From the IMG/VR virus record IMGVR_UViG_3300029448_005319, positions 1-34,600 of that record: a stretch of 34,600 nucleotides of DNA. One strand, written 5' to 3'. Of the stretch, positions 15,841 through 34,600 are shown piece by piece (the first letter of the stretch is position 1; every line of letters starts with the position of its first letter). Under the pieces are notes generated by a model. It did no database searches. It had not been told where the DNA came from and worked only from the letters and a program-made list of their open reading frames with translations. This DNA comes from a virus. The position numbers and the translations under genes are program-made.

Positions 15841-17013
15841 ATGAAAACATATCCTCTCGCATCCTCGACATGGGGAGACGAAGAAATACAAGCAATCCAA
15901 AAAGTCATCGACAGTGATCGATTTACGATGGGGCATCATGTCAAACAATTTGAGTTTGAATTTTCGGAGTATTTTGGTTCACGCAATGCTGTGATGGTCA
16001 ATAGTGGATCAACTGCAAACTTGCTAATGCTCTCACTTTTACGTTGGAAAAAAAGACTCCCATCCACTGCCAATATTATTGTTCCTGCGGTTGGTTGGAG
16101 CACCACATATTTTCCGATTGTTCAAAATAATTTTGGTATGAACTTTGTAGATGTCGATCCGTATACGTTTAACATTAATGTTGAGCAAGTCAGAGAAGCA
16201 ATTGACGAAAATACAGTAGCAATTATGCCAGTAAATCTGTGTGGTAATCCTTGTGACTATAACGAGTTGTTGATGATTTGCGATGAGCATAATTTATTTC
16301 TTTTGGAAGATAACTGTGAATCAATGGGTGGTCGTTGGGCAGAACATTATCTAGGAACTATCGGTGACATGGGTTCCCATTCTTTCTTCTTCTCACATCA
16401 TATGTGTACGATGGAAGGTGGTATGATACTGACAGACGATGATGAGGATGCAGACTTTCTACGAAGTTTACGAGCACACGGATGGTGTCGTGATCTGTCC
16501 GAAAATTCAACTCTGTATCAACGAACAGGTGATTTCTTTACTGACAGTTTTACATTCATTGCTCCGGGTTACAGTGTTCGCCCACTTGAAATGAGTGGTG
16601 CTATTGGTAGTGAACAGTTAAAGAAGTGGGACTCCATCATAGAAGGTCGATTAGAAAATACTGCATTCTTTCAATCGTTGTTTTCTGATGTACCTTGGTT
16701 AAACATTCAGCAAGAGCATCATGGTGAGTCTAGTTGGTTCTCGTTTGGTTGTGTTTTGGATGGCACATTGAAAGGCAGACGCAATGAGGTGGTCAAAGCA
16801 TTCGATCAAAACGGTATTGAGGCAAGACCACTTGCAAGTGGAAACTTTTTGAAACAACCTGTAATGGAGTATTTTGATAATACCTTGGTTAAGTTCCCAC
16901 TTTCGGTAGCAGAGAACATTGACACCAATGGATTTTGGGTTGGTAATCACATGGTTGAATGCAAGAAAGGAATTCAAAAGATGTATGATGTATTAAAAGG
17001 TCTTGCAGAATGA
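15841..17013 (+). CDS. DegT/DnrJ-family PLP enzyme, probably a sugar 3-dehydratase (ColD/RfbH-like)
   Basis: 390 aa, full length for the family. Hallmarks: NSGSTANLLMLSLL (phosphate-binding loop for PLP), IIVPAVGWSTTYFPI, NFVDVDPYTFNI, LEDNCESMGG (Asp contacting the PLP ring), and SFFFSHHMCTMEGGMI. In sugar aminotransferases the position after S-F-x-x-x is the PLP lysine; here it is His 186, as in ColD and RfbH/E1, which use PLP to remove the 3-hydroxyl of 4-keto-6-deoxy sugars. So it probably makes a 3-deoxy or 3,6-dideoxy sugar nucleotide in the cytoplasm. ATGA overlap with the SDR gene downstream. GGAG lies before ATG 15841. Confidence 0.85.
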   Translation: MKTYPLASSTWGDEEIQAIQKVIDSDRFTMGHHVKQFEFEFSEYFGSRNAVMVNSGSTANLLMLSLLRWKKRLPSTANIIVPAVGWSTTYFPIVQNNFGMNFVDVDPYTFNINVEQVREAIDENTVAIMPVNLCGNPCDYNELLMICDEHNLFLLEDNCESMGGRWAEHYLGTIGDMGSHSFFFSHHMCTMEGGMILTDDDEDADFLRSLRAHGWCRDLSENSTLYQRTGDFFTDSFTFIAPGYSVRPLEMSGAIGSEQLKKWDSIIEGRLENTAFFQSLFSDVPWLNIQQEHHGESSWFSFGCVLDGTLKGRRNEVVKAFDQNGIEARPLASGNFLKQPVMEYFDNTLVKFPLSVAENIDTNGFWVGNHMVECKKGIQKMYDVLKGLAE

Positions 17014-17879
17014 AACGTGTTCTTATCACAGGATCAAGTGGATTCATTGGTTCACATTTAGTTGAAGCAATGACAGATTTTGAAATTTATCAATGGGATC
17101 GTAATCAAGGTGATCTAAAGTTACCTCAAGACTTTCCTGAAGTGGATATTGTTATTCATTTAGCGGCATTCAACTCAACAAAAGATTTCTATCTCAAGGG
17201 ATTTGATGTTATTCGGGATAATATTCTGACGACATTAAATCTGTTAGAGCACTATCGTAACCAAGAAACTAAACCACTGTTCATATATACAGGGACTCCT
17301 GAAGCAATTACAGGTGCGACAGACTATTTTGGTTATAAGATTCCAACTGATGAAGAATGCCCCGCAGTAATTGATGATGTCAAGAATATTCGTTGGAGTT
17401 ATGCGGGATCAAAACTTTTGGGTGAGCAAAGTGTGGTTGCATCTGGTTTGGATTATGTGATCATTAGACCAAACAACATTTACGGTCCTCGTCAAAAGAA
17501 TCATTTTGTTGATGAGTTTATTGATCGATTGCGAAATGGAGATCGTGAATTATACGGATGGCAAAATACTCGTTCGTGGTTGTATATTGATGACTTTGTT
17601 GATGCATTCACACAGTTGATATTCAAAGAAGAGGCAAAGAACGACATTTTCAATATTGGATCAAATGACGAAACCGAAGTTATTGTGCTTGCTGAAAAGA
17701 TTGCTGAACTATTGGATATCAATCCATCAGAGATCGTTCGCAAAGACGCACCTGAAGGTTCGGCAAAACGTAGAATGCCAGATATTACAAAACTAAAAAA
17801 TATCACTGGATGGGAACCCAAAATCAATCTTGAGGATGGATTAGCAAAAACTGTTCGATGGCACTTGGAGTTAAAATGA
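17010..17879 (+). CDS. Extended SDR: NAD-dependent sugar epimerase/dehydratase
   Basis: 289 aa. The Rossmann motif is MKRVLITGSSGFIGSHLVEA (G-x-x-G-x-x-G), with HLAAFNST in the cofactor pocket and the catalytic Y-x-x-x-K in RWSYAGSKLLGEQ. IIRPNNIYGPRQ and FNIGSNDETEV are typical of nucleotide-sugar epimerases, 4,6-dehydratases and reductases. It would supply or reduce a 4-keto or 4-epimer intermediate for the neighbouring PLP enzyme or dehydrogenase. Overlaps on both sides place it in one operon. The exact substrate cannot be read from sequence. Confidence 0.87.
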   Translation: MKRVLITGSSGFIGSHLVEAMTDFEIYQWDRNQGDLKLPQDFPEVDIVIHLAAFNSTKDFYLKGFDVIRDNILTTLNLLEHYRNQETKPLFIYTGTPEAITGATDYFGYKIPTDEECPAVIDDVKNIRWSYAGSKLLGEQSVVASGLDYVIIRPNNIYGPRQKNHFVDEFIDRLRNGDRELYGWQNTRSWLYIDDFVDAFTQLIFKEEAKNDIFNIGSNDETEVIVLAEKIAELLDINPSEIVRKDAPEGSAKRRMPDITKLKNITGWEPKINLEDGLAKTVRWHLELK

Positions 17880-18673
17880 AATTAGGTATTATTGGTCTTG
17901 GGGTTGTAGGTCACGCAAATAAAAAAGGGTTTGAGAAGTTAGGGCATCAGGTCATTGTTCACGATATTAAATTGAACACAAAAATCCAATCTGTATTTGA
18001 TTGTGATATTGTGTTTGTGTGTGTTCCAACACCATCTAAAAGTAATGGGTCATGTGATACAAGCATTGTCGAAAGTGTGATATCTTCTCTTGCAGATGAA
18101 AACTTTGGGGGCATCATTGCAATTCGTAGTAGTGTAGTTCCGGGCACAACTCAAAAAATGATTGACAAATATTCTAATTCCCGAATCTGTTTTGTGCCAG
18201 AGTTTTTGCGTGAGAGATGTGCAGAATATGATTTTATTCACGATCATCAGTTACTTGCAGTTGGCACAAACAATTTTGAGATATACTCAAATATGGTTAG
18301 GGCACATGGACCTTACCCAAAGAATACAGTAATTCTAAAACCAACCGAAGCAGAAGTATTGAAATACTATTTGAATTTATATGCGTCCACACGAGTAACC
18401 TTTGCGAATGTTTTTTATGAAATATGTCAGAAACTTGGGTGTGACTATACGGATGTAAAGAATGCGTATGTAATGACAGGTCGTCATGGTGATATGTACT
18501 TAGATGTCAATGATGATCTGCGTGGTTATGGTGGAGTGTGTTTACCAAAAGATACTAAAGCAATTGTTAAATTGGTAGAAGACCTCAATTTAGATTTGAA
18601 GTTTTTTGAAACTGTTGATAGAGATAATACAAAGTTTAAATCTACAGTATTTTCTGGAATGCGAGATGGGTAA
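17876..18673 (+). CDS. UDP-glucose/GDP-mannose dehydrogenase, short form
   Basis: 265 aa from ATG 17876. The N-terminal NAD domain begins MKLGIIGLGVVGHANKKGF (G-x-G-x-x-G); CDIVFVCVPTPSKSNGSCDT, SSVVPGTTQKM and FVPEFLRE are family blocks; the helix PTEAEVLKYYLNLYASTRVTFANVFYE is the central dimer helix. The catalytic Cys is in GGVCLPKDTKA (usually G-G-x-C-F/L-P-K-D). The usual enzyme is about 390-430 aa: the C-terminal nucleotide-binding domain is almost wholly missing here. It may be a minimal enzyme, need a partner, or be a decayed gene. ATGA overlap before it. Confidence 0.82.
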   Translation: MKLGIIGLGVVGHANKKGFEKLGHQVIVHDIKLNTKIQSVFDCDIVFVCVPTPSKSNGSCDTSIVESVISSLADENFGGIIAIRSSVVPGTTQKMIDKYSNSRICFVPEFLRERCAEYDFIHDHQLLAVGTNNFEIYSNMVRAHGPYPKNTVILKPTEAEVLKYYLNLYASTRVTFANVFYEICQKLGCDYTDVKNAYVMTGRHGDMYLDVNDDLRGYGGVCLPKDTKAIVKLVEDLNLDLKFFETVDRDNTKFKSTVFSGMRDG

Positions 18674-19373
18674 AAATTCTAAAGTATTAGACATTCGTGG
18701 TGGGTTAGGAGTCCAAGTATTTGAGTATTTGGTTGGACTTGCCAGAGTACCAGATGGACAAACTCCCGAACAATATTATGAAAAGATTGTGTGTAATATT
18801 GGTGGTGGGGAAAATATCATGGATCATTCTCGCACTAGTTGGTTAGACAAAGTATTTGATTTAGATTTACCATACGAAACATCAAAAGGTTTGAGTAAAC
18901 AACACGCATGTTCACCATTCAACTTTCAGCAGATTGTGAATAAAGATATTGTCAGTCAAGTTCAGTTAAAACAAAATGCCACTTCAAACGGTTATAAGAT
19001 TCTTCATATACGAGGACGAGACCGTTCGTTAGTTGCACCTGCTGACTATCTCAACTTGGCAGAAGAGATCGGTTCTGATTTCAAAATTCTGACAAACGAA
19101 CCAAAAGTAGCACAAGGAATCATTGATACATTAGGATATGGTGAGAACATCTCATCAGACCCCGTGACAGATTGGTTTACGCTAGTGGGCGCAAAAGAAA
19201 TCCACGGTGGATTGAGTGGATTCTCAACTAGTGCGATGCTGTTTGATCATGAAAAAGTTTATCGTGTGTACTCAAAAGAAAACAGTCAAGGAATCCATCA
19301 AGTTCCAAAGGATTTGTATGATAGTTTGGAAGTCTTCCGACAAAGTTATTTCAAAAATATGGAGTGGATATAA
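18666..19373 (+). CDS. GT11-like glycosyltransferase (fucosyltransferase-like)
   Basis: 235 aa from ATG 18666, overlapping the dehydrogenase end. LDIRGGLGVQVFEYLVGLA resembles the N-terminal G-G-L-G-N-Q-x-F-x-Y block of alpha-1,2-fucosyltransferases (GT11); ILHIRGRDRS resembles their donor-binding H-x-R-x-G-D motif; and EIHGGLSGFSTSAMLFD resembles the late S-x-S-T/S-F block. All three occur in the right order. It would add a deoxysugar in the cytoplasm to a lipid-linked or other acceptor. The match is partial, so family assignment is tentative. TAATG overlap with the oxygenase gene. Confidence 0.55.
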   Translation: MGKNSKVLDIRGGLGVQVFEYLVGLARVPDGQTPEQYYEKIVCNIGGGENIMDHSRTSWLDKVFDLDLPYETSKGLSKQHACSPFNFQQIVNKDIVSQVQLKQNATSNGYKILHIRGRDRSLVAPADYLNLAEEIGSDFKILTNEPKVAQGIIDTLGYGENISSDPVTDWFTLVGAKEIHGGLSGFSTSAMLFDHEKVYRVYSKENSQGIHQVPKDLYDSLEVFRQSYFKNMEWI

Positions 19374-20329
19374 TGTTGTTGAGTGATTACCTCAACATAT
19401 CAGAACTCAAACCACATGAAGAGGCATGTATTGAGTCACCCAAAAACTTTACAGAGAATGCGGTGAATGCATATCGTGTAATGATGGGAGTAGAACCCCA
19501 TCCGATTGTATTTTCACACGAAAAGTATTTCGCTCGTCATCCAGTATTGAATGATGTTGAACTCAATAAGAAAGGACAACATTTGTTTCGGTGGGCATTC
19601 GGAACCTATGCCGCTCGTCATCGTTGCGAAACACCTGAATTTTTGGATAGGGGTTTAATCATTATTGAAGATTTCCTAGACAAAGATTGGCAAGAGGAAC
19701 TACAGAGAGAGTTTGAGACAATTCCTTGTGCAGTGAATAAACAACCATTCAATCTTGCATCTAATCTGATGAAGATGAGCAATACATATTCCGCAGTCAA
19801 CTATACTGTCAACAGTTCAGGATTGCGTGAGTTGGTACAAGGATGTGTGGGTAGGCACAAACAGAATGCAACGACTGAATATCGGGAGAAGAGTTACGCA
19901 CAGCGGGTTGAGAACTCACCAGACGACAACGATATTCAGAAGGTGATACACTCTGACATCTTTTTCCCTGCTATCAAGTGGTGGTACTTCCCCGATGAAG
20001 TCAAAAGAGACCACGGTGCGTTTCGTTATATGACAAGACCTTTAGGAATGGAATCCAACTTTTTGGGTTGGTTGTATTTGCAAAGTGTTAGGATTGCCGA
20101 AGGTACATACGAAGAGTGGAGGGGCAAAGACCATGCCGAAGGGAGTTTGCGTATGTCCGAAGAAGAGATAAGTACGCACGGATATGCAATGGATCAGGTG
20201 ACTTGTAAGGCAAACACTTTGGTGATTGGTAATGTTCAGAACTTTCACTGTCGGGGTGATACAGTCAAACCGATTACTCGTAACGCAATCCACGGTTCTA
20301 TTCGCATAGAAAAACCATTTGTGATTTGA
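19373..20329 (+). CDS. 2OG-Fe(II) oxygenase (phytanoyl-CoA dioxygenase-like)
   Basis: 318 aa from ATG 19373. The iron-binding facial triad is visible as H193-x-D195 (KVIHSDIFFPAIKWWYFPDEV) and a distal His around 292 (VQNFHCRGDTVKPITRNAIHGSIR), with an Arg about ten residues later for 2-oxoglutarate. These enzymes hydroxylate small molecules, sugars or proteins. Residues 1-90 have no known domain. As the last gene of the sugar operon it may modify the same glycan or its nucleotide precursor; in phages such oxygenases are also tied to base modification, so both remain open. Confidence 0.75.
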   Translation: MLLSDYLNISELKPHEEACIESPKNFTENAVNAYRVMMGVEPHPIVFSHEKYFARHPVLNDVELNKKGQHLFRWAFGTYAARHRCETPEFLDRGLIIIEDFLDKDWQEELQREFETIPCAVNKQPFNLASNLMKMSNTYSAVNYTVNSSGLRELVQGCVGRHKQNATTEYREKSYAQRVENSPDDNDIQKVIHSDIFFPAIKWWYFPDEVKRDHGAFRYMTRPLGMESNFLGWLYLQSVRIAEGTYEEWRGKDHAEGSLRMSEEEISTHGYAMDQVTCKANTLVIGNVQNFHCRGDTVKPITRNAIHGSIRIEKPFVI

Positions 20330-20354
20330 CATAGTGTGCCAGATAGGTTATACT
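20326..20354 (+). promoter_or_regulatory. Sigma70-like promoter
   Basis: TTGACA (20326-20331), 17-nt spacer, TATACT (20349-20354). The expected start is 2-4 nt before ATG 20364, with no room for a ribosome site, so the transcript may be leaderless. Confidence 0.8.
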
Positions 20355-20363
20355 AACTCTGTT

Positions 20364-20510
20364 ATGACGAAATTGAAGACAATTCATACCTTTGTATTTT
20401 TTGATGATTCTTATCCACAGATTTATCACACTACTAAAGAATTCTTTTGTTTTTTACCAGAGTGGGAAAATCGTATAAAAGAAATCAAAGAATTTGAAAG
20501 TGACTTCTAA
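20364..20510 (+). CDS. 48-aa hypothetical protein
   Basis: MTKLKTIHTFVFFDDSYPQI then YHTTKEFFCFLPEWENRIKE and an acidic end. The short aromatic strands suggest a compact soluble protein. Directly behind a consensus promoter; possibly translated from a leaderless mRNA. No known family. Confidence 0.55.
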   Translation: MTKLKTIHTFVFFDDSYPQIYHTTKEFFCFLPEWENRIKEIKEFESDF

Positions 20511-20527
20511 AGATTTGGAGCAGTATT

Positions 20528-20767
20528 ATGCGTAAACTGTACATCGTTGAACACTGGATTCCTTTTCCGATGTCAGAGTATGGGGGTGTTTGGATTCTGA
20601 TCGCAGATAGTGATGAACAGGCAGTTGATTTTCTGTGTGATTTTCACCCTTCTTTGAACTATCGTAATGAGTGGCAACCCACAATTGAAAAACAGGTCGA
20701 AGAGGCAAAGAAGATTGTCGTTGCCGAAGATGAACCTATTGGATTGAGGCATGAGTTTATAACATGA
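20528..20767 (+). CDS. Hypothetical protein
   Basis: 79 aa. MRKLYIVEHWIPFPMSEYGG, VWILIADSDEQAVDFLCDFH then a helix (EKQVEEAKKIVVAEDEP). Strand-strand-helix layout with GGVW-x-L-I-A-x-S-D-E-Q-A is like small alpha/beta proteins found next to each other in T4-like phages. GGAGCAG ribosome site. ATGA overlap with the next gene. Confidence 0.65.
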   Translation: MRKLYIVEHWIPFPMSEYGGVWILIADSDEQAVDFLCDFHPSLNYRNEWQPTIEKQVEEAKKIVVAEDEPIGLRHEFIT

Positions 20768-20913
20768 GTGTAGTAATTGTATATAAAACACCACAAGGCA
20801 ACACGCAGTCTTGGGTGTGCGATGAAAGTAAGTTAGACCACATACTCAAAATATGTGAAGCAAAAGAACTTGAAGTTTTAGAACTCGATTATTTGGTTGG
20901 AGAACAGGTATGA
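20764..20913 (+). CDS. 49-aa hypothetical protein
   Basis: MSVVIVYKTPQGNTQSWVCD then ESKLDHILKICEAKELEVLE. ATG 20764 and stop 20911 both overlap neighbours, giving translational coupling. A beta-hairpin followed by a helix; no known family. Confidence 0.6.
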   Translation: MSVVIVYKTPQGNTQSWVCDESKLDHILKICEAKELEVLELDYLVGEQV

Positions 20914-21176
20914 AGAAAGGTGATATCGTAACAGTGGTGACATTGGCAGGAGAAATGATTGGTAAATTCAACAACAGTGGTGCGGGTACAATTACTTTAG
21001 ATGACCCTCGTATGTTGATTCAGAACGAACAAGGAATGGGGTTTGCCCACGGAATATGTGTCACTGGTAAGAATAACCCAACAGAGATTACATTCCAAAG
21101 TTATGTGTTCGTCACACCAACCAATGAAGACATCGAGAAGGCATATCGCCAAGCAGTCAGTGGATTGGTGTTGTGA
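20910..21176 (+). CDS. Small beta-barrel (possibly Sm-like) phage protein
   Basis: 88 aa. MKKGDIVTVVTLAGEMIGKF then GAGTITLDDPRMLIQNEQGM and SYVFVTPTNEDIEKAYRQAV: a run of strands with G-D-I-V-T, a G-E-x-I-G-K turn, then I-T-L-D-D-P, like Sm/LSm-type or SH3-like folds. A family with this layout is common in marine T4-like phages with unknown function. Overlaps both neighbours. Confidence 0.6.
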   Translation: MKKGDIVTVVTLAGEMIGKFNNSGAGTITLDDPRMLIQNEQGMGFAHGICVTGKNNPTEITFQSYVFVTPTNEDIEKAYRQAVSGLVL

Positions 21177-21442
21177 TTACAAATGACTTGACAGACAAGA
21201 ACGAATTGCTGTTGGTGCTGATGGAAGAGTGTGCTGAAGTTCAGCAAGAGGCATCTAAACTGATGCGGTTTCCCTCCAACTCTGCTTCTGATTTGGAAAA
21301 AGAGATTGGAGACTTGTTGTGTATGATTGATTTGTTACACGGATGGGATTTGATTCGGTGGGACGAAATAGAAAAGCAAGCACATCGCAAACGAGAAAAA
21401 CTAATGAAGTTTTCACACTTTATGGGAGAAGATTATGAGTGA
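21173..21442 (+). CDS. MazG-like nucleotide pyrophosphohydrolase
   Basis: 89 aa from GTG 21173 (GTGA overlap). LLVLMEECAEVQQEASKLMR (E-E-x-x-E) and DLEKEIGDLLCMIDLL (E-x-x-D) are the two metal-binding helices of the all-alpha NTP-pyrophosphatase superfamily (MazG, dUTPase, HisE). It would hydrolyse a nucleoside triphosphate or (p)ppGpp-like compound to monophosphate and pyrophosphate. Phage MazG proteins are thought to tune nucleotide pools during infection. The substrate is unknown. Confidence 0.82.
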   Translation: MITNDLTDKNELLLVLMEECAEVQQEASKLMRFPSNSASDLEKEIGDLLCMIDLLHGWDLIRWDEIEKQAHRKREKLMKFSHFMGEDYE

Positions 21443-21746
21443 GCAAGTGATTGAATTTGAGTTTGACCGTCAAACCAATGATACTTGGACGATGATGAAG
21501 TTACTAGAGCAAAGAATTGGTGATCAATTATATGACCCCGAACCTATCTTTGATGGTGTTCTGAATTCTGCGGATCGTCAGAAGTTGGTTGTGTTACAGT
21601 ATGAGTTGAATCAAGTGTTGGATGGGTATACCCGAAGTTTAGTGAAGCAAGACGAAACGATGGGTGATTTGAAATTTACCACAGCGGGTGACTTTATGGA
21701 TGAGCAAAAAGAATATGTTTATCCGGGTAGTGATCCTCAAGTATGA
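21435..21746 (+). CDS. Hypothetical protein
   Basis: 103 aa, overlapping the MazG-like gene by 8 bases and the next gene by ATGA. MSEQVIEFEFDRQTNDTWTM then a helix pair (LNSADRQKLVVLQYELNQVLDGYTRSLVK) and an acidic end. No recognised motif. Confidence 0.65.
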   Translation: MSEQVIEFEFDRQTNDTWTMMKLLEQRIGDQLYDPEPIFDGVLNSADRQKLVVLQYELNQVLDGYTRSLVKQDETMGDLKFTTAGDFMDEQKEYVYPGSDPQV

Positions 21747-22525
21747 AGGTAGTAATCGCAACTGGTGGATTTGACCCCTTGCACTCTGGACATGTTTCAT
21801 ATCTGAAACAATGTAAACAATTAGGAACATATTTGATTGTGGGTGTAAACTCTGATGAGTGGTTGACTCGTAAGAAAGGTCGTTCATTCATGAGTGTTGA
21901 GGAGCGAAAGAGTATACTAGAAGCACTAGAGTGCGTGGATGAAGTTCGTCTATTTGATGATTCCGATGGAACTTCAACCAAATTGATTGAGAGTGTTCTT
22001 GCAGAAGAACCAGAATCAAAAGTGTTCTTTGCTAATGGTGGTGATCGGAAAGAAGGTAATGTCCCCGAAATCAAAGTTGCGAATTCACGATTGTACTTTT
22101 GCTATGGCATTGGTGGTGAGGATAAGAAGAATTCTTCATCTTGGATTCTTGAGGAATGGAAAGCACCAAAGACCGAACGCCTTTGGGGATACTATCGTGT
22201 ACTACACGAAGATGAGGGTGTGAAAGTCAAGGAACTGACAATCAATCCAGGATGTTCCATCAGTATGCAGAAACATCACATGAGAAGTGAGCATTGGCAC
22301 ATCGTTAGTGGGATTGCGACTGTTGAGTATCAACTTAGTCCAAGTTGGAAAACTGTACTCCCGAAGGTTTTACAAAAGCATGATACTATAGATATAGAGA
22401 GGGGGACATGGCATCGTGTTCATAACTACAACACTCAACCACTCAAACTTGTGGAAATACAGTATGGAGACGAGTGCGTTGAGTCCGACATTGAGAGAGA
22501 CAATGGGAGAGTCTGCAGGGATTAG
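21743..22525 (+). CDS. Fusion: cytidylyltransferase-like domain plus sugar-isomerase-type cupin
   Basis: 260 aa. Residues 1-140 form a nucleotidyltransferase domain: GGFDPLHSGHVSYLKQCKQL (H-x-G-H), GVNSDEWLTRKKGRSFMSVE and RKSILEALECVDEV, as in RfaE/HldE, TagD and CoaD. Residues 155-260 form a cupin like the C terminus of mannose-1-phosphate guanylyltransferase/phosphomannose isomerase: LTINPGCSISMQKHHMRSEH, WHIVSGIATVEY, IERGTWHRVHNYN, LVEIQYGDECVESDIERDNG. One chain could thus isomerise a sugar phosphate and activate it with a nucleotide, feeding the operon at 15841. The catalytic state of the cupin is unknown. It ends overlapping the next gene. Confidence 0.82.
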   Translation: MKVVIATGGFDPLHSGHVSYLKQCKQLGTYLIVGVNSDEWLTRKKGRSFMSVEERKSILEALECVDEVRLFDDSDGTSTKLIESVLAEEPESKVFFANGGDRKEGNVPEIKVANSRLYFCYGIGGEDKKNSSSWILEEWKAPKTERLWGYYRVLHEDEGVKVKELTINPGCSISMQKHHMRSEHWHIVSGIATVEYQLSPSWKTVLPKVLQKHDTIDIERGTWHRVHNYNTQPLKLVEIQYGDECVESDIERDNGRVCRD

Positions 22526-25262: not shown

Positions 25263-25805
25263 ATGAATGTATTTTACTTGGATCGGAATCCAAAGAAGTG
25301 TGCTGAGATGCATTGTGATAAGCATACTTGTAAGATGATTATCGAATACGCACAACTTCTCTCCACCGCACACCGTGTTCTTGACGGTGATCCCTACTTA
25401 GATAAAACTAAGAACGGTCGTTCTATCAAACGATGGCGACTTGACAAGTACGAAGATGTGTTGTATATAGCACACTCACCCAATCATCCCTCTGCAATTT
25501 GGGTACGACAAACAAGCAATAACTATTCGTGGTTGTACCAGTTATGGTTCGCACTCTGTAAAGAATACGAATATCGTTATGGTCGAGAGCATTTAACATT
25601 CACCAAACTAAAGTATGTGATTGGGTTCCCACCAAAGAACATTGCGAAAGGCAACATGACTGAGATGCCACAAGCAATGCCAGACCATTGTAAAATGGAT
25701 AACCCGATTAATGCTTATCGCAATTATTATAAGATTGAGAAGAAGAACTTTGCAAAATGGACAAAACGTCAAATTCCAAATTGGTTCTTGACATCAGTTG
25801 CATAG
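25263..25805 (+). CDS. Conserved phage protein (CDKHTCKM family)
   Basis: 180 aa. MNVFYLDRNPKKCAEMHCDK then HTCKMIIEYAQLLSTAHRVL, YIAHSPNHPSAIWVRQTSNN, YSWLYQLWFALCKEYEYRYG and MPQAMPDHCKM: a highly conserved family in phages and some bacteria, rich in Cys, His and Trp, so possibly metal-binding or DNA-processing. I have no reliable function for it. TTGGAG before ATG 25263. It precedes the late promoter of the tmRNA. Confidence 0.8.
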   Translation: MNVFYLDRNPKKCAEMHCDKHTCKMIIEYAQLLSTAHRVLDGDPYLDKTKNGRSIKRWRLDKYEDVLYIAHSPNHPSAIWVRQTSNNYSWLYQLWFALCKEYEYRYGREHLTFTKLKYVIGFPPKNIAKGNMTEMPQAMPDHCKMDNPINAYRNYYKIEKKNFAKWTKRQIPNWFLTSVA

Positions 25806-25810
25806 TGTGG

Positions 25811-25818
25811 TATAAATA
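25811..25818 (+). promoter_or_regulatory. T4-type late promoter
   Basis: TATAAATA, the exact T4 late-promoter box used by the gp55 sigma factor with gp33 and the sliding clamp. The start would be near 25824, right at the tmRNA acceptor piece. Confidence 0.7.
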
Positions 25819-25823
25819 TTAAG

Positions 25824-26053
25824 TAACTTGTTGACGATAACAAGAAGGTGTTTGGACAGGGGTTCGACTCCCCTCATCTCCACCTAAGACCATTCAAGGA
25901 TGAGTGGTTTTAGGGGGGATGCTCTGGGTTCGACAGGCAGATGGGCGGTTAGAAGAGAGTTACGAAAAGATAAACGCAAACGATGAAACGTTCGCACTTG
26001 CTGCTTAATTATAAGTAGCGGAGTCGTGGGGGAACTTGGCAACAGAATCCCCC
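25824..26053 (+). ncRNA. ssrA: tmRNA (ssrA), circularly permuted two-piece form
   Basis: tmRNA rescues stalled ribosomes: it enters like tRNA-Ala and then codes a degradation tag. Here the 3' (acceptor) part comes first: a T arm AGGGG-TTCGACT-CCCCT (25858-25874), then CATCTCC (25875-25881) and ACC. About 30 nt later the 5' part starts, GGGGATG (25915-25921), which pairs with CATCTCC (one G-U), followed by CTCTGGGTTCGACAGG, the D-loop-like region typical of tmRNA. The intervening segment folds as TAAGACCA/TGGTTTTA (25885-25892 with 25905-25912). The tag frame is GCA at 25976 to TAA at 26006: ANDETFALAA. The tag end lies in a P5-like hairpin (CTGCTTA/TAAGTAG). CCA is not fully encoded. Piece boundaries are approximate. 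Confidence 0.93.
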
Positions 26054-26061
26054 TTTCTTTT
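26028..26061 (+). terminator. Terminator at the end of the tmRNA
   Basis: GGGGGA (26028-26033) pairs with TCCCCC (26048-26053), then TTTCTTTT. It may also form the last helix of the coding piece of the tmRNA. Confidence 0.75.
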
Positions 26062-26075
26062 ATGAGGCACACGCT

Positions 26076-26405
26076 ATGCGAATATTTGTAATACTCATGT
26101 TGTTATGGGCAACAGCATCATTTGCTGAACATAATGGCATCTCACCAAATACTAAAGAACTTCCTATGCAATGTGGGGATACTGAACATCTTCTTGATGG
26201 GTTAAAAGAAAGATATAGTGAAGAAATCGTTATGATGGCGGCAAGTGCTAACGCACAAGGTCACGAACTCTATCACTCGCTGTGGATCAATCAAGGAACT
26301 TCAACTTGGTCATTCATCGTAGTGAATAAACAAGTTGGTGTTACTTGTGTTATTTCATCAGGAGAGAACTTCACCATGTTTTTTCCAAGCAATAGTGGTA
26401 TCTAA
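26076..26405 (+). CDS. Small exported protein
   Basis: 109 aa. MRIFVILMLLWATASFAEHN has a clear signal peptide (cleavage after A-S-F-A). The mature part has a Cys early (PMQCGDTEHLLDGLKERYSE) and one late (VGVTCVISSGENF), probably a disulfide, with the pattern C-G ... L-x-x-x-Y-x-E ... T-W-S ... C-x-x-x-x-G. I know such periplasmic proteins from marine phages and bacteria, without function. GAGG before ATG 26076. It starts 15 nt after the tmRNA terminator. Confidence 0.7.
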   Translation: MRIFVILMLLWATASFAEHNGISPNTKELPMQCGDTEHLLDGLKERYSEEIVMMAASANAQGHELYHSLWINQGTSTWSFIVVNKQVGVTCVISSGENFTMFFPSNSGI

Positions 26406-34331: not shown

Positions 34332-34600
34332 TAACTAATTCCCAATTCGTTTTCTGTAAGAATTTTAAATTCCCATTTTCGATCAGCACAATATTCTTGT
34401 GCGGCTTTCCACTTAGAAGTATTTATGCCCCAATCTTTAACTTCTTGTATATAACGTTTTGTTGTTCTTTTTCTTGGGGCGGGTGGTTTTGTCTGTTTGT
34501 GTGGTTTTACTTCAATCATCACTGTCTTTACACGATTCTGTTCATCTAGCATCTGAATTACAAAGTCTGGGTAGTATCGATGCCATCTTTTGTCGATGGG
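34331..34600 (-). CDS. 4: Head completion protein gp4, 5'-truncated by the window edge
   Basis: About 89 C-terminal residues visible; the frame is open to base 34600. RWHRYYPDFVIQML then RVKTVMIEVKPHKQTKPPAP, RTTKRYIQEVKDWGINTSKW and EYCADRKWEFKILTENELGI match gp4 (also called gp50/65): Y-x-P-D-F ... I-E-V/I-K-P-x-K-Q-T-x-P-P ... W-x-F-x-I/V-L-T-E-x-x-L-G. The D-F and E-V-K match a PD-(D/E)XK-like core. In T4, gp4 is needed after packaging so that tails can join heads. Confidence 0.85.
   Translation of the reverse strand, partial: PIDKRWHRYYPDFVIQMLDEQNRVKTVMIEVKPHKQTKPPAPRKRTTKRYIQEVKDWGINTSKWKAAQEYCADRKWEFKILTENELGIS

Follow-up and report, generated by a model that had tools for sequence, protein, structure and literature searches.

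The DNA analysed here, which we call the window, is a stretch of 34,600 nucleotides comprising positions 1-34,600 of IMG/VR record IMGVR_UViG_3300029448_005319, an incomplete record of 37.6 kb. It encodes gp32, a T4 baseplate protein, a tail tube protein, a gp2 DNA end protector and a gp33-like regulator, a gene set that places the virus with the T4-like phages and so bears out the assignment made in a preliminary description of this DNA. The gp32 proteins nearest to that of the window are from cyanophages (~60%). A DNA search found no near relative among annotated phages. A sugar-nucleotide cluster at 15841-22525 encodes a DegT aminotransferase, an NAD epimerase, a UDP-glucose dehydrogenase and a heptose kinase/adenylyltransferase-like protein whose C-terminal part is cysteine-dioxygenase-like.

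Positions 25824-26061 of the window hold a complete circularly permuted tmRNA gene, the parts of which are listed in Table 1. ARAGORN reports a tmRNA* at 25793-26099 with the tag ANDETFALAA, and two Rfam models match above their curated cut-offs: RF01850 (beta_tmRNA) at 25774-26062 with 99.3 bits (E 3e-29, cut-off 84 bits) and RF04321 (tmRNA_permuted) at 25833-26008 with 93.7 bits (E 4e-17, cut-off 47 bits). The covariance search against two-piece tmRNA models that the preliminary description had suggested as a check is therefore positive, and the order of parts that it had read from the letters is confirmed, with the T arm and CATCTCC-ACC followed by a 30-nt spacer and then by GGGGATG, the tag and a hairpin. 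The spacer does form a hairpin as described, but its stem is ~14 bp instead of 8 bp and stacks continuously on the 7-bp acceptor stem. The third pair of this acceptor stem, GGGGAUG/CAUCUCC, is a G.U that corresponds to the alanine-identity pair G3.U70. The final A of the CCA tail is not encoded, the gene carrying ACC (discriminator plus CC). The 5' end of the acceptor piece is predicted from the promoter, and in viral relatives the spacer ranges from 15 to 182 nt.

Table 1. Features of the permuted tmRNA locus, in window coordinates
Feature	Position	Strand	Remarks
Sigma-70-type promoter TTGACA-17 nt-TATAAA	25788..25816	+	11/12 consensus
TATAAATA, T4-type late-promoter octamer	25811..25818	+	Overlaps -10 box; position conserved
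Acceptor piece of mature tmRNA, ~61 nt	25824..25884	+	5' leader, T arm, acceptor 3' strand, ACC
T arm AGGGG-UUCGACU-CCCCU	25858..25874	+	Paired substitutions in relatives
Acceptor 3' strand CAUCUCC + ACC	25875..25884	+	CAUCUCC (25875-25881) pairs with 25915-25921
Intervening segment, 30-nt hairpin	25885..25914	+	Presumably removed in processing
Coding piece of mature tmRNA, ~140 nt	25915..26053	+	Acceptor 5' strand GGGGAUG, tag region, 3' hairpin
Acceptor 5' strand GGGGAUG	25915-25921	+	
Tag frame ANDETFALAA	25976..26008	+	Resume codon GCA to stop TAA; ARAGORN
3' stem-loop GGGGGA/UCCCCC, then T-rich TTTCTTTT	26028..26061	+	Likely 3' end or terminator
Small protein, signal-peptide-like start (MRIFVILMLLWATASFA)	26076..26405	+	Recurrent next gene after these tmRNAs

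Conservation of the RNA structure

None of 200 dinucleotide shuffles folds as well as the 223-nt RNA (z -4.4). When the two pieces were separated, their association in RNAcofold was not stronger than that of shuffled pieces, simple cofolding being unable to model pseudoknots. To compare the T and acceptor stems we aligned the window with relatives L003, L004 and L195 and with the Methylophilales phage Melnitz. Four of the 12 pairs show changes on both sides, every cell of the comparison is paired, and all five sequences have G.U as the third acceptor pair; sliding the partner by 1-2 columns as a control gave zero paired changes. L003 and L004 came to light by way of a neighbouring protein, and Melnitz was taken from the literature, so that none of these three was selected on its acceptor stem or G.U pair. 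As read from this alignment, the compensated changes in the T and acceptor stems mark the RNA as one under selection. Among 57 distinct T-arm/acceptor combinations, both viral and bacterial, acceptor pairs 5 and 6 also take several standard pair types, though search patterns and parsing rules bias these counts and it is therefore the five-sequence comparison, mostly of sequences not chosen on the acceptor, that carries the weight.

Overlapping promoter signals

The TTGACA -35 box at 25788-25793 lies exactly 17 nt 5' of TATAAA. A standard promoter scan requires T at the last -10 position and so missed this sigma-70 site, which was found once the rule was dropped. The preliminary description had seen a perfect late promoter here, and an exact, conserved octamer is indeed present, but the same bases form the -10 box of the TTGACA-17-TATAAA promoter. 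TATAAATA occurs once in the window against a chance expectation of 1.6 copies, a count that is unremarkable, and its informative feature is therefore its position. It is found in 6 of 60 distinct viral upstream regions (expected ~0.46; related sequences among the 60 are not independent), in all six 43-44 nt before the T-arm GGAC, and L002, L003, L004, L039, L141 and Melnitz carry it 43-46 nt before that GGAC. The sigma-70 signal is likewise positioned: scores of at least 10/12 near the window register occur in 9 of 54 viral upstream regions where 0.44 would be expected, and among the bacterial permuted tmRNA genes compared, the majority show TTGnnn-17-nATAAT in the register of the window.

One reading of these signals is that the gene is expressed late only: TATAAATA would act as a late promoter of the gp55 type, and the match to sigma-70 would be incidental. 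This alternative concerns timing alone and would be compatible with ordinary tmRNA function. The exact octamer is fixed in position in L004, L039 and L141 despite otherwise unrelated upstream DNA, L039 has it without a good -35 box, L195 and L196 retain only CTAAATA, and the -35 or -10 box is weak in L039 and L195, all of which speaks for a late promoter, whereas an incidental sigma-70 match would have to accommodate TTGACA exactly 17 nt upstream in the window, in L003 (where the promoter was read directly from the sequence) and in Melnitz, TTGACT in L004, and TATAAT without the late octamer in L110, L171 and L173. It would also have to accommodate the 12 sigma-70-like sites scoring at least 11/12 on the + strand of the window, compared with 0-3 in shuffles, both strands; the - strand of the window has none. 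We consider late-only expression unlikely and, as the sole explanation, over-read given the overlapping TTGACA-17-TATAAA. Since the octamer is conserved in close relatives with unrelated flanks and the sigma-70 site overlaps it, an overlapping early and late promoter is favoured over a late-only one in the group to which the window belongs. The late-phase supply of ribosome rescue put forward in the preliminary description is overstated, as the 11/12 sigma-70 promoter overlaps the octamer in the register of Melnitz and of the bacterial permuted tmRNA genes; judged from the promoter sequence, early transcription is at least as likely as late. The predicted sigma-70 and late start sites nearly coincide, so the position of a 5' end alone cannot separate the two. 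The structural genes of the window lie on the - strand, where they may have a late promoter in NATAAATA at 34427.

Distribution and lineage

Phage-encoded permuted tmRNA is already published and abundant in viral contigs, so the kind itself is not new. A 2022 survey of 18,146 phage genomes described 53 two-piece tmRNA structures, of which 50 are marine or aquatic, and reported the permuted tmRNA of Melnitz (PMC9004378). Across all tmRNA forms, a 2025 database lists 79 unique sequences from bacteriophages (PMC11915505). In IMG/VR an acceptor-specific pattern found 99 stretches and a looser pattern at least 120. ARAGORN identified permuted genes in 175 of 301 collected sequences, a set that includes bacterial sequences and duplicates, and the tags are very diverse. 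Viral permuted tags run from 8 to ~31 amino acids with ends such as FAV, VTA and VALA, a hint that some of the tags may not serve ClpXP. The 31-residue tag of L043, AKSSDTAANNIVALSRILTREFARTDELVTA, ends in VTA rather than an AA-type end and differs by one residue from that of L064; the best model for L043 is cyano_tmRNA, and we take the ANNIV.xSR stretch in both tags to resemble marine cyanobacterial tags. In a Sideroxyarcus MAG contig (L086, 2236-3137) a permuted tmRNA and a standard-form tmRNA match are adjacent on the same strand. The tmRNAs of mycobacteriophages (Bxz1, Wildcat and others) and of Bacillus phage G are phage-borne like that of the window, but are one-piece with the standard gene order. 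Bxz1, Wildcat and phage G are included in a published list of tmRNA-bearing phages (PMC4131195).

The closest described case is Melnitz (EXVC044M, MZ577097; PMC9004378), a marine T4-like phage whose permuted tmRNA, like that of the window, has as neighbours a PD-(D/E)XK nuclease, a gp33-like regulator/late-transcription coactivator and a gp32-type protein, and has the TTGACA-17-TATAAATA promoter in identical register. Its authors placed the tmRNA after an early promoter (PMC9004378). The two differ in their best model (alpha_tmRNA for Melnitz, beta_tmRNA for the window) and in their tags (ANDNYVPVDYALAA and ANDETFALAA respectively), and Melnitz has a glutamine riboswitch behind its tmRNA, whereas the Rfam search of the window gave no riboswitch match. 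The betaproteobacterial permuted tmRNAs (RF01850; Azoarcus, Rhodocyclaceae, Gallionellaceae) resemble the window gene in architecture, ANDE-type tag and promoter register, and in the best cases the tRNA-like domain plus spacer is ~80-82% identical. They also have GGGGAUG/CAUCUCC in common with it, although this is the search pattern itself. Their tags are ANDERFAIAA, ANDENFAMAA and similar, and they score 166-267 bits against the beta model where the window scores 99, a gap that suggests that some helices outside the tRNA-like domain may differ from those of true beta tmRNAs.

To place the RNA we built a tree of 127 rows that samples betaproteobacterial and second proteobacterial clades and leaves out cyanobacteria. 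The window RNA groups with L002, L039, L004 and L110 in a virus-only group of five (support 97/91). It is excluded both from the sampled betaproteobacterial clade (98/96) and from the second proteobacterial clade (100/98), which has alpha-type tags and contains Melnitz; we take this second clade as alphaproteobacterial from its tags and because Melnitz matches the alpha model. On this tree, whose deep branches are unsupported, the window RNA falls outside the sampled betaproteobacterial tmRNA lineage. With those branches unsupported and cyanobacteria left out, we treat a virus-only lineage as a hypothesis. The best BLAST match in 399 genomes of one betaproteobacterial order, 82% over 92 bases, is too weak to assign a host. 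A tag-region pattern gave zero matches across 84,980 species genomes, so the tag points to no host.

L003 has an upstream gene with 83% DNA identity to that of the window, and has promoter layout, downstream gene and tag in common with it, but identity drops to 62% in the acceptor piece, and the RNA of L003 lies in another viral group (98/98). With flanks and tag alike, this divergence agrees with the tmRNA having been replaced while its locus stayed fixed. Ten records that share only the upstream neighbour (35-61% identity; one of 211 kb, most of them fragments) gave no permuted tmRNA match, so the gene is accessory in these phages. A small protein whose signal-peptide-like start reads M[RK]...MLLWTTASFA lies directly 3' of the permuted tmRNA in 12 of the 175 parsed loci, several of them copies from the same phage. 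Loci with this protein include the window, L003, L039, L141, L153, L195 and L196, with upstream flanks that are sometimes unrelated, and the tmRNA and small protein may form a travelling cassette.

Proposed function

Ordinary trans-translation uses SmpB, AlaRS and proteases, and the gene anatomy supports such a role here. We consider it highly probable that the locus is a working phage-borne circularly permuted ssrA whose RNA is transcribed, processed and charged and rescues ribosomes through host SmpB. This reading is supported by the ARAGORN and two Rfam matches, the compensated stems, the intact ALAA tag, the promoter register and the Melnitz-like neighbours. The gene anatomy, the compensated T and acceptor stems and the conserved promoter sequence are observed, whereas transcription, processing, charging, SmpB use, timing and benefit to the phage are inferred. 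A single precursor would be made, from a promoter that host sigma-70 can use and that a T4-type late factor probably uses as well. The tRNA-processing enzymes of the host would excise the 30-nt hairpin to leave the acceptor and coding pieces joined by base pairing, after which CCA would be completed and AlaRS would charge the RNA through G3.U70. No SmpB gene was found within the 37.6-kb record, itself a fragment, so host SmpB would have to be borrowed; together with it the charged RNA would enter ribosomes stalled on broken mRNA, add ANDETFALAA to the nascent protein and release the ribosome. The ALAA end would direct the product to host proteases such as ClpXP. For the phage, the gain would be a steady flow of free ribosomes at a time when mRNAs of both host and phage are cut, and a means to dispose of unfinished proteins.

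The RNA could instead be a decoy that binds host SmpB or occupies ribosomes and so blocks host trans-translation, for which there is precedent in a phage tmRNA-like RNA that inhibits tmRNA; a decoy role has been suggested in mycobacteriophage DS6A, whose tmRNA is TLD-only (PMC4131195; PMC11915505). The DS6A RNA is tag-less, whereas the window gene retains its whole tag frame, resume codon, stop, ALAA end and G.U pair, and close relatives conserve ANDETFALAA or ANDESFALAA, with the canonical ALAA end, while their flanks change. A tag would be superfluous for a decoy, and we regard this role as improbable. That the gene is a functionless host fragment captured passively, or an attachment-site relic, is scarcely credible even though ssrA often serves integrating elements as an attachment site (PMC11915505), since a T4-like genome carries it whole, promoter and 3' hairpin included, its RNA groups only with viruses outside the sampled host clades, and its stem changes are compensated.

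Ribosome rescue with host SmpB is thus the most likely function of the window gene, which provides a clean, complete case of a phage-supplied ribosome-rescue RNA whose sequence is testable for timing and function. The overlap of sigma-70 site and late octamer is common to the cultured phage Melnitz, which opens the purpose of phage tmRNA to experiment in a cultured phage. We tentatively suggest, as a possibility short of an expectation, that phages have long maintained their own permuted tmRNA lineages, exchanged at a fixed locus with the promoter kept and under hybrid early/late control. If so, trans-translation would be under viral control throughout infection, by lineages distinct from the alpha- and betaproteobacterial ones.
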